From assembly GCA_022790755.1 (NCBI GenBank), contig JAAVXR010000073.1, positions 1-64,000 on the forward strand: DNA of 64,000 bases. The letters run 5' to 3'. A program made the translations under genes and the position numbers. Numbering within the stretch: the stretch's first letter is position 1; every line of letters begins with the position of its first letter. Under the pieces are notes generated by a model that was given only the letters and a program-made list of their open reading frames with translations, was not told where the DNA came from and searched no databases. Positions 6,501 through 10,375 of the stretch are shown in pieces. The stretch comes from Hespellia sp. Its GTDB lineage: Bacteria; Bacillota; Clostridia; Lachnospirales; Lachnospiraceae.

Positions 6501-6765
6501 AGAGGAAATTTCCGCTCTACTCGATCGGACACTGAACCCAATTTAGCAGAATGCAAGGAATAAAACACGAGGTAACGATTCGTTAGGTCAGCGCAGTTTT
6601 GCGCTCTCCTCAATCCGAACCCCGGCTGAATTTTCAGCCCGGCTATTTCGTCCGCCCTGTCCAATTTTGGACTCAACAACAGCACCATGACAATATAATA
6701 TGCTTACCCAGGGAGCCGTTGAGGTGCTATGTCAACCGCCGGACGAAAGAAAGGGGGTTGGTGCT

Positions 6766-6855
6766 ATGGTTACATACTACGATCTATTCACGTTTGTAAT
6801 TATGCTTTGTTCTGTTATCGCCCTTGTATACACGATTTTCAGCAACAAAAAATAG
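6766..6855 (+). CDS. Hol-Tox-like type I toxin peptide, copy 1
   Basis: MVTYYDLFTFVIMLCSVIALVYTIFSNKK*, preceded by AAAGGGGG RBS; matches the short putative holin-like toxin pattern. Confidence 0.8.
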   Translation: MVTYYDLFTFVIMLCSVIALVYTIFSNKK

Positions 6856-6889
6856 CGCCCCTCGTCTGGTAAACTAAGGCGCTATTTTA
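6848..6889. terminator. bidirectional terminator shared by toxin mRNA and antisense RNA (copy 1)
   Basis: aaaatagcgcc...ggcgctatttt. Confidence 0.8.
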
Positions 6890-6940
6890 TAACACTTATT
6901 TGCCGGCGGTCAGGCTACATCTGACTAACGGCTCCCTTGT
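6850..6940 (-). ncRNA. candidate RNA antitoxin of copy 1
   Basis: Minus-strand promoter TTGACA-16-TATAAT (6975-6948), 5' motif GGGAGCCG...CCGCCGG, ends in shared terminator. Confidence 0.7.
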
Positions 6941-7014
6941 TAAGTATATTATATCAAATATACCGAATATGTCAAACCCTTTCATGCCCTCCCTGGCCGG
7001 AAGGAGTATAGACA

Positions 7015-8160
7015 TTGGCCAAAAGAAAGAAATATCCAAAGTTGCCAAATGGTTATGGCTCAATTAAATATCTGGGAAAAGGCCGCCGCAATCCTTATGC
7101 CGTGCATCCACCAACTACAGAGTTTACTCTCGACGGAATCCCCGTGATCCCAAAAGCAATATGTTATGTGGATGATTGGATGAAAGGGTTTGCCGTTCTG
7201 ACCGCCTACCATGCAGGTACTTATACCCCCGAATTGCTGCAGGAACTCTCTGAATTGCCTAATTCCGGAGATACAGCCATCATTCAGCGTATACTGACTG
7301 ATTATTCCTCTATGAAGGGAATCACCCCGGGAGCCTCAGAAAAGACATTCAGAGAGGTATATGAGGATTTCTACCAGTATAAATTTGAACGGGATAAATC
7401 GAAAAGCTATTCTAAAGCTTCCCGCTATTCCATTCAGGCGGCTTATAAGAATTGCACCGAATTGCATGACCGGCCGTTTCGCTCTTTGCGGCATGATGAT
7501 TTACAGAAAGTCGTGGACTGCTGCCCGCTGGGACATGGTAGTCTGGAGCTGATCGTAACGCTTTTGAATCAGATGTATGCATATGCTGACATTTACGATC
7601 TTTGTGACAAGGACTATTCTAAACACGTCAAGATCAACATACCAGACGATACGGAACATGGAAAAGCATTCACAGAAAAGGAACTAAAGACACTCTGGCA
7701 ACATCAGGATAACAAAATTATAGAGTTTCTTCTCATCATGTGTTACTCTGGTTACCGGATCAGCGCATATAAAACCTTGGAAATCCACTTGAAAGAGCGG
7801 TATTTTCTTGGAGGCGTGAAGACGGCCTCAGGCAAAAACCGAATCGTACCGATACATTCTGCAATTCTGCCACTGGTAAAGCGTCGCATTCGCCAGAACG
7901 GAACTATTCTTGTAGAATCCACCGGTACATTTCGCAAAGATATGTACATCACACTGGAAACAATCGGAATCAAACACCACACGCCGCACGATTGCCGTCA
8001 TACATTTTCTGCTTTATGTGAAAAATATGAAGTAAATGAAAACGATCGAAAACGGATGCTCGGGCATTCTTTCGGGGAAGATATCACCAATAAAGTATAT
8101 GGACACCGGGAAATTGAAGACCTCAGAAGAGAGATTGAGAAGATAAAAGTTTGTTACTAA
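7015..8160 (+). CDS. tyrosine-family site-specific integrase
   Basis: 381 aa from TTG with AAGGAG RBS; catalytic motifs YSGYRISAYKT, HTPHDCRHTF, LGHSF, KVYGHR. Confidence 0.9.
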   Translation: MAKRKKYPKLPNGYGSIKYLGKGRRNPYAVHPPTTEFTLDGIPVIPKAICYVDDWMKGFAVLTAYHAGTYTPELLQELSELPNSGDTAIIQRILTDYSSMKGITPGASEKTFREVYEDFYQYKFERDKSKSYSKASRYSIQAAYKNCTELHDRPFRSLRHDDLQKVVDCCPLGHGSLELIVTLLNQMYAYADIYDLCDKDYSKHVKINIPDDTEHGKAFTEKELKTLWQHQDNKIIEFLLIMCYSGYRISAYKTLEIHLKERYFLGGVKTASGKNRIVPIHSAILPLVKRRIRQNGTILVESTGTFRKDMYITLETIGIKHHTPHDCRHTFSALCEKYEVNENDRKRMLGHSFGEDITNKVYGHREIEDLRREIEKIKVCY

Positions 8161-8485
8161 TTTGTTACTAACCGAACCATTTTAATATTTTGAAAAGCAA
8201 TTAAAACATATATTAGAAGTCGCTGTATCCGGCATTTTTCAAGGGGTTCAGCGACTTTTGCTTTTATTTCTTGCATAACCTGAACAATGTTTTGATTTAA
8301 AATATTCTTAATATTGGAGTACGGGACTTCGACGGCATCAAATCTTAATTAAATAGTCTTTCCTTATCAATCATTGACAGATACATAAAACCTGTTATTT
8401 TCATTTTAAATATGTTATAGTGGTTTAAAGGGAGCTGAAGGGGCGATTACGTCAGCCGCCGGACGAAAGAAAGGGGGCTGGTGCT

Positions 8486-8566
8486 ATGGTTACATACAGT
8501 GACATGTTCACATTCGTAATTATGCTTTGCGCCGTTATAACTCTTGTTATCAACATCAAACGCTAA
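8486..8566 (+). CDS. Hol-Tox-like type I toxin peptide, copy 2
   Basis: MVTYSDMFTFVIMLCAVITLVINIKR*, identical AAAGGGGG...GGTGCT leader arrangement to copy 1. Confidence 0.8.
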   Translation: MVTYSDMFTFVIMLCAVITLVINIKR

Positions 8567-8569
8567 AAG

Positions 8570-8660
8570 TAGCGCCCTCGTCCTGGTAAGATAAGGCGCT
8601 ACTTCATGTAACAAATTATTTTCCGGCGGCTAGGTGTACTCTAGCTTTCGGCTCTCTTGT
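8570..8660 (-). ncRNA. candidate RNA antitoxin of copy 2
   Basis: TTGACA-16-TATAAT promoter at 8695-8668, GAGAGCCG...CCGCCGG 5' motif, shared terminator agtagcgcc..ggcgctact. Confidence 0.7.
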
Positions 8661-8689
8661 TAAGTATATTATACCAAATATGCCGGATA

Positions 8690-8804
8690 TGTCAAACCCT
8701 TTCATGACTGACCGTTTCGCTCTTTGCGGCATGATGCTATACAGAAAAACGTAGCCTACTATCCGCTGGAGACATTCTTTCGGTGAAGATATCCCCAATA
8801 AAGT
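8690..8804 (+). pseudogene. internally deleted integrase relic
   Basis: gtcaaaccctttcatg + tgaccgtttcgctctttgcggcatgatg...ctggagacattctttcggtgaagatatccccaataaagt align to separated parts of the 7015-8160 integrase. Confidence 0.8.
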
Positions 8805-8901
8805 GGTTTCGGTTCAAAATATTTATAATTTCATAATAAAAATTCGTTTTCTTTCATATTTTCAACATAGTTTGGACACATTTGCCCTTTATACTAAACG
8901 T

Positions 8902-9039
8902 CAGATAGTTGAACAAACAACTATCTCCCCCTCATAAAATGGCATTCGAAAATTGCTTTGGATGTCGCATTTTACTCTCATTCCTTTAGAATAATAAAAC
9001 AACAACGAAAACCCCCGCAGAAATGTGGGGGTTTTCGTT
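8902..9039 (+). ncRNA. structured C-rich sRNA candidate, copy 1
   Basis: TATACT -10 at 8890; AGATAGTTG/CAACTATCT stem; CCCCCTCA single-stranded motif; TAAAATG/CATTTTA stem; terminator AACGAAAACCCCC/GGGGGTTTTCGTT. Confidence 0.65.
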
Positions 9040-9053
9040 AAAATAATGCTTCT

Positions 9054-10028
9054 TTATCGAACCCGGATCGTATTTCCCGCATAAATCTGATTCGGATTAG
9101 ATATCCCGTTTAACCGCTGCAGGGTAGAAACCGTTGTTCCAAACTGCACAGCAATTTCCGAAAGAGTATCACCTGGCTGAATCGTATAAAACTGTGCCGA
9201 GGACGAATTATTTTCCGGAACCCGGATCGTCTGCCCCGCATAGATCACATTCGGATTGGAAATACTATTCAAAGTGGCCAACGTCTGATAAGTCGTACCA
9301 TAACGCGCTGCAATACCCGAAAGAGTATCGCCTGGCTGAATAACATAGGTAATATAATCTTCATCTGGAGTTGGTTCTGGCTCCGGCGTTGGTTTCCCAT
9401 CCAGATGATTCAGTCCCGCATTGCGGATGATCACCGGATAATTCTCAAAACCAAGATCGAGATCTACGGCACCGGATATCCCCGGAATACTACCGTTGTT
9501 CGAATACTGCCAGATTCCACAAGCGGTCCCATCAAATTGGCTCGTATACCGAGCATACCACAATGCATATTTATCTCTCAAAGAATCTTCCAGATAATTC
9601 GTCAGGAAATTCCGATTTGCATAGAACATTGTATAATAACCAAGCTCCTCCATACGATCACAAAATGCCGATACAATACTTGATGCAAGTGAACGTCCCA
9701 TATTTACACCATTGGATTCTGCATAATCCAGCGTTGCCTGTTCAATATCATAGGCAACCGGATATTCCAATCGAAAGTTTTCTATCGTTTTCGCACAAAA
9801 ATTTGCCTCACGAACCGCCTGCTCTGGATTTAATGCATAACATACCCAATATACGCCTATTGGAATTCCTATACGATTACATTCTTCCGCGTTTTGCCGA
9901 AAAGTCTCATCCACAGAATTATATCCATATCCAGCCCGCACCATAGCGAAACGAATTCCTGACTCTTTTACTAATTCCCAATCTATATTTCCCTGAAATT
10001 TACTGACATCAATACCTTCTACACTCAT
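9054..10028 (-). CDS. GH25 family lysozyme with two C-terminal LysM domains
   Basis: [35 protein letters not shown]; two LysM repeats [24 protein letters not shown] and [24 protein letters not shown]. Confidence 0.92.
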
Positions 10029-10233
10029 ATAAGCTCCTTCTTTGATAAAGTATTCCCAAATGAAACACTTTACCAATTCCTTAACCCATCGCTTTATTAT
10101 ATGCCCGGAAAGTAAACTCGGTGCACATTGATTTCTGGAAGAACAACAGCCAATTTAAGAATTTCATAATATTTTTTCGATTTCTTTCATAAAATCAACA
10201 TATTTTAGACACATTTGCACAGTATACTAAGGT

Positions 10234-10375
10234 CAGATAGTTGATAAACAACTATCTCCCCCCTCATAAAGTAGACGCAATCGGGGGAACCCGGTTGCCA
10301 CACTTTACTCTCATTCCTTTAGATAACTATAAAAACGACGAAAACCCGCAAACCGAAAGGTGAGCGGGTTTTCGC
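10234..10375 (+). ncRNA. structured C-rich sRNA candidate, copy 2
   Basis: Same upstream box and architecture as copy 1: AGATAGTTG/CAACTATCT, CCCCCCTCA, TAAAGT/ACTTTA stem, CGAAAACCCGC/GCGGGTTTTCG terminator. Confidence 0.65.

Follow-up and report, generated by a model that had tools for sequence, protein, structure and literature searches.

Does the window, the whole 64,000-nt stretch of DNA analyzed here, carry a second copy of a toxin-antitoxin (TA) module whose RNA stems have changed by compensation, and is that copy still a working module? The original prediction described a copy 2 in which the outer motif and terminator are kept while both 5' stems change as pairs, the sense stem from GTTGA/TCAAC to GCTGA/TCAGC and the antisense stem from GTCAG/CTGAC to GCTAG/CTAGC. 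Copy 2 is indeed a repeat of copy 1 at the expected place (8428-8700), with 78.7% identity across 258 nt and with the outer motif and terminator retained.

The features on which the analysis turns are as follows.

6766-6855, + strand: copy 1 toxin ORF, MVTYYDLFTFVIMLCSVIALVYTIFSNKK
6847-6941, - strand: copy 1 predicted antisense RNA, with its promoter at 6975-6948 (12/12 consensus)
8428-8607, + strand: copy 2 predicted toxin mRNA, from the start of homology at 8428 to the shared terminator; may extend beyond
8430-8439, + strand: leader inverted repeat, left arm GGGAGCTGAA; pairs with 8647-8656 on the + strand
8440-8450, + strand: copy 2 leader segment GGGGCGATTAC; predicted partner of 8569-8578 at the 5' arm of the terminator
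8452-8481, + strand: copy 2 Shine-Dalgarno (SD) hairpin, anti-SD TCAGCC (8452-8457) and SD GGCTGG (8476-8481)
8486-8566, + strand: copy 2 toxin ORF, MVTYSDMFTFVIMLCAVITLVINIKR; 26 aa, single hydrophobic segment
8565-8661, - strand: copy 2 predicted antisense RNA (antitoxin), about 97 nt, with putative ends
8569-8602, both strands: copy 2 two-way intrinsic terminator, arms 8569-8576 and 8595-8602, 18-nt loop
8629-8645, - strand: copy 2 antisense 5' hairpin, arms 8629-8633 and 8641-8645, with covariation
8647-8656, + strand: leader inverted repeat, right arm; on the - strand, the antisense RNA 5' leader
8668-8695, - strand: copy 2 antisense promoter TTGACA-16-TATAAT (12/12 consensus; TG precedes the second hexamer)
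8700-8804, + strand: two integrase gene fragments matching 7462-7531 (82.9%) and 8065-8096 (93.8%), one with an in-frame stop

A peptide family with a coding signature, probably on Lachnospiraceae mobile elements

Genes for phage major head and scaffolding proteins (phrog_422, phrog_172) at 1004-2425 mark the left part of the window as a prophage, and copy 1 lies between the prophage repressor and integrase; an att repeat was sought in the window and none was found. Each copy has a convergent antisense promoter with all 12 consensus bases and a 16-nt spacer, directly upstream of the predicted antisense RNA, and this promoter is kept in nearly all of the homologs listed. A scan for sense promoters gave no good candidate, and Rfam gave no match at gathering score anywhere in the window.

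Relatives of the peptide occur in 83 of 397 Lachnospiraceae family genomes (E up to 0.01), while the one same-genus genome searched yielded none; a profile match was obtained in 22 of 399 genomes sampled across the phylum. At the DNA level, a sequence pattern hit at least 118 contigs from genomes, most of those listed being labelled as Lachnospiraceae or as one of its genera; cultured carriers include Parablautia intestinalis and Roseburia inulinivorans. The stricter first version of this pattern had no match on viral contigs, a looser one matched 7 viral contigs, and comparison of the module DNA with phage and plasmid records gave no match. We extracted 188 distinct loci, 119 of them close, and 110 of these 119 had the whole layout and entered the covariation alignment; a stricter complete-locus filter, which kept 38, was replaced before any covariation test. 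Differences among the relatives fall at codon positions 1, 2, and 3 in the ratio 1324/296/3694, a third-position bias from which we judge the ORF to be translated.

The window peptides are 26-29 aa long with a hydrophobic core and a basic tail. Against the Hol_Tox model (PF16935; cut-off 23.3), some diverged relatives that share the layout reach 26 bits, whereas close peptides of the window type come to about 15 bits and both window peptides go unreported. The best NCBIfam match among the relatives is PepG1 (E = 3.4e-4), a marginal peptide similarity. Our literature search found no description of an antitoxin for the Hol_Tox family. Judged by its sequence, the module appears to be a variant of type I TA system not seen before, near Hol_Tox. 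The family name, together with the annotation of one relative as phrog_3488 holin, suggests another reading, in which the peptide is a holin-like phage lysis protein and not the toxin of an antitoxin pair; the placement of copy 1 between repressor and integrase and the conservation of a convergent antisense promoter and of RNA structures speak against it, and we regard it as very improbable. We consider it likely that the locus is a type I TA module on Lachnospiraceae mobile elements, represented by an apparently intact copy 1 in the prophage and a decayed copy 2, and acting by the mechanism proposed here.

In this mechanism, a small membrane peptide would be made from an mRNA whose SD is held in a short hairpin, for which there is covariation, so that the mRNA is kept off. 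A strong promoter on the opposite strand would give an antisense RNA of about 95 nt, with a hairpin at its 5' end and a segment complementary to the terminator. The two RNAs probably meet at their complementary terminator loops, whereupon the antisense RNA would silence the mRNA or pass it to RNase III. Upon loss of the element, supply of the labile antisense RNA would stop and the toxin would be freed.

In other genomes, the toxin gene is found in two or three copies a few hundred bases apart (L074, L077, L145; G720:C43).

Covariation supports the antisense stem and an SD hairpin

Covariation was assessed over the 110 homologous loci with our own R-scape-like implementation, not R-scape itself, using a G-test with average product correction and, as the null, 40 alignments evolved on a FastTree tree. 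The column pairs scoring above all 40 nulls were 207-221 and 208-220 of the antisense hairpin, 147-180 and 159-169 of the terminator, and 17-225 and 18-224 of the leader inverted repeat. The adjacent antisense pair 209-219 (E = 1.6) and the SD pair 35-54 (E = 5.7) miss a threshold set across all column pairs, and we count them solely because they belong to helices specified in advance. In 43 diverse loci, 93.7% of cells are paired and 19 of 30 pairs show two-sided changes, values as high being reached in 0 of 500 shuffles. Because these helices had been identified for the most part in those very loci, we read the count as descriptive rather than as independent replication.

The antisense stem behaves as proposed. 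The change from GTCAG/CTGAC in copy 1 (6909-6913/6921-6925) to GCTAG/CTAGC in copy 2 (8629-8633/8641-8645) involves two genuine double substitutions, both at positions that are homologous between the copies; two of its column pairs exceed every tree-based null, and across the 43 diverse loci 97.6% of cells are paired, with two-sided changes in 5/5 pairs.

The sense stem does not. GTTGA occupies leader nt 8-12 in copy 1 (GGGAGCCGTTGA) and GCTGA occupies nt 5-9 in copy 2 (GGGAGCTGA); because the two are offset by 3 nt, they do not correspond as homologs, and the substitution does not count as compensation. In the 43 diverse loci, the copy 1 register pairs in 74.8% of cells (shuffled, 74.1%) and the copy 2 register in 63.3% (shuffled, 64.8%). 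Since the covariation score is no higher than in shuffles in either register, the sense stem was rejected. The case teaches that apparent compensation between two copies needs a register check.

The change from TCAAC to TCAGC is compensated elsewhere, where GGTTG of the ribosome-binding site becomes GGCTG, as part of a hairpin that reads TCAACC/GGTTGG in copy 1. This SD hairpin is paired in 95.3% of cells in the 43 diverse loci, with two-sided changes present, and in a cis swap test among divergent classes own pairings exceed swapped ones (z = -5.2, p = 5e-5). Folding gives it a probability of 0.82 before the terminator is made and 0.76 after. By these sequence comparisons, the actual sense-side structure is a hairpin predicted to sequester the toxin ribosome-binding site. 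On sequence evidence, the general claim of a type I module with conserved RNA structure is well supported, by the coding signature, the convergent antisense promoter, the shared terminator, and covariation in many loci; of the two proposed stems, the antisense stem was upheld by covariation over about 110 homologs, and the sense stem stayed at the level of shuffles in the 43 diverse loci.

Predicted pairing of the leader with the terminator

The shared terminator is paired in 94.4% of cells with two-sided changes in 6 of 8 pairs, a value that none of 500 shuffles reached. The leader segment GGGGCGAT is complementary to the terminator 5' arm GCGCCC and tracks its changes, for example GAGGGCGG/CCGCCCT and AGGATGATAC/GTAGCATCCT. 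Over 19 divergent classes, own leader-terminator pairing beats swapped pairing (z = -4.3, p = 5e-5), and folding predicts the helix with a mean probability of 0.63 before the terminator 3' arm is made and 0.18 after it (63 of the 110 loci were scorable). This co-change supports a leader-terminator pairing that the original prediction had overlooked. The helix would form before the 3' arm and be transient, and it may act like an antiterminator or protect the 5' end.

Near-identical leaders on opposite strands

The toxin mRNA and antisense RNA have nearly the same 5' sequence, and, as these starts lie on opposite strands, the locus is bounded by an inverted repeat. Its arms are paired in 96.5% of cells in the 43 diverse loci, and own arms pair better than swapped ones (z = -3.9, p = 1.5e-4). 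The original prediction had overlooked this repeat too. Such covarying, nearly identical leaders are unexplained by standard type I schemes. Mismatches between the arms are more often of the kind that a G-U pair on the sense strand allows than of the antisense-strand kind (510:142, 139:40, and 54:19 in three groups); counted as independent events, the bias is 48 vs 24 in the transcribed part (p = 0.006) and 56 vs 40 at arm positions -10 to -8, which covary upstream of the likely start (p = 0.13), all of these tallies being post hoc comparisons made once the inverted repeat had been seen.

As an addition to the type I reading, the toxin mRNA may read through the terminator and across the antisense gene, its leader pairing with the 3' part of the same molecule in the manner of AapA or Hok; the antisense 5' end would then equal the mRNA leader because both bind the same 3' segment. 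The covariation of the repeat, the sense-strand G-U bias in its transcribed part, a predicted helix probability of 0.87 in the read-through RNA, and the poor U-run that the copy 2 terminator has in the sense direction are consistent with this addition, but most loci do carry a U-run after the terminator, the covariation reaches upstream of the likely start site and so suggests a cause at the DNA level, and masking the 3' segment does not alter the SD accessibility predicted for the near group. We hold read-through to be rather unlikely. A model in which the antisense RNA acts as competitor and read-through frees the SD was not adopted as the main reading: predicted accessibility was 0.45 vs 0.47 in the near group, unchanged in the mid group, and slightly changed in the distant group.

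Alternatively, the repeat may have no RNA function and be kept by a DNA process such as template switching between inverted repeats, or through the binding of one protein to the two promoters. The covariation of positions -10 to -8, before the likely start, and the nonsignificant sense G-U bias there point this way. Homogenization should, however, erase the fixed arm differences that survive between covarying blocks, and the arms differ among loci, unlike the fixed sites of a global regulator; on balance we regard such a cause as less likely than not. Returning to the type I reading, one could picture a clade-wide module in which both RNAs start with the same leader because they are rivals for a single 3' stretch of a toxin mRNA that reads through, the leader acting also on the terminator, so that control would work through RNA identity and not only complementarity; we put this forward as an unlikely, speculative extension.

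At 6693-6720 and 6927-6954, the bases just after the -10 hexamers covary between both promoters across the 110 loci, and no RNA explanation simply fits this covariation upstream of the likely starts.

Specificity and apparent decay of copy 2

The loops of copy 2 had been said to lack the clear loop-loop complementarity of copy 1, so that specificity might differ. The poorer match is roughly right, but loops alone do not predict specificity, because the copy 1 antisense leader is predicted to pair equally with the copy 2 start region and its own. Pairing of the antisense leaders with their own start regions has predicted energies of -26.0 and -21.6 kcal/mol in the two copies, so that the contact may extend that far, and a cognate swap test of this pairing gave p = 0.026 in the near group and p = 0.12 over all groups; the pairing is thus strong in energy without being clearly cognate, and it appears to be a weak candidate for the source of specificity. 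Between full-length RNAs, copy 2 antisense is predicted to pair with its own mRNA at -83.8 kcal/mol, against -54.3 and -54.6 kcal/mol across copies, and weak cross-talk of copy 2 antisense with copy 1 is predicted from these models (-54.3 vs -77.5 kcal/mol).

That a second copy exists is borne out, but the description needs a qualifier, for copy 2 no longer has its native sense promoter, its peptide ends two lysines short, and integrase debris lies behind it. It is about 96% identical to loci from other Lachnospiraceae, and this homology begins at 8428 with unrelated sequence upstream, so the native sense promoter has been replaced. The peptides of relatives end in KRKK, and an AAA to TAA change in copy 2 drops the terminal KK, which is kept in 110 of the 119 close peptides. 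We infer that copy 2 is the remains of a second, related element. Its open ORF, its intact SD hairpin, terminator, and antisense promoter, and the stronger predicted full-RNA pairing with its own mRNA would fit a second module that works fully and has a specificity of its own; set against the swapped promoter region, the nonsense change, and the adjoining integrase debris, such a module seems improbable to us. From its sequence, copy 2 most likely survives as an orphan antitoxin, which the intact antisense promoter would permit, or as an inert relic. Three other loci (L107, L190, and L193) have an intact antisense side and a sense leader replaced by unrelated sequence, which goes beyond the promoter loss of copy 2; these are possibly orphan antitoxins.

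Relation to known type I systems

In par of pAD1 (Fst, RNA I-RNA II), convergent RNAs share a two-way terminator, a 5' stem-loop sequesters the SD, the peptide is small and hydrophobic, and the 5' end of the mRNA lies in an intramolecular helix (PMC7472228). The present module resembles par in its convergent RNAs with a shared two-way terminator, as judged by sequence, and in an SD-sequestering 5' stem-loop, as judged by covariation; it also has a small hydrophobic peptide and an mRNA 5' end predicted to take part in a helix within the molecule. It differs in that its peptides are without the Fst PXXXG(C) motif, the window peptides having no P or G, and we therefore do not file it as par/Fst; moreover, the leader helix here goes to a terminator arm and the RNA leaders are inverted repeats. 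Of the DRa/DRb repeats of par, a counterpart in the SD region is here only an imperfect direct repeat (GGGGGCTGGTG vs GGCGGCTAGGTG).

With txpA/RatA, bsrG/SR4, and sprG/SprF, the module would share a prophage-borne hydrophobic toxin and an antitoxin RNA meeting the 3' end of the mRNA, but the certain overlap here is the terminator only (about 40 nt), as compared with 75-120 nt. SR4 binding at the 3' end of bsrG mRNA lengthens the SD stem (PMC4147584), and in aapA/IsoA the 5' and 3' ends of the toxin mRNA pair (PMC6733600). A 5'-3' helix as in aapA/IsoA and hok/Sok is predicted in our toxin mRNA if it reads through, although the peptides are unrelated and in our module the antisense gene lies on the 3' side. 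By analogy, bsrG/SR4 and AapA appear to be the closest mechanisms. Diverged relatives above the Hol_Tox cut-off have the layout of the module, whereas the Pfam model is silent on antisense RNA. Hol_Tox peptides are annotated across gut Firmicutes, and an RNA anatomy with mutable base pairs is now defined for a module of 83 of the 397 sampled family genomes.

Downstream of copy 2, a GH25/LysM lysozyme gene (9054-10076) is bracketed by two direct repeats, imperfect and 76 and 55 nt long, within 8822-9014 and 10155-10347, spaced 1333 nt.
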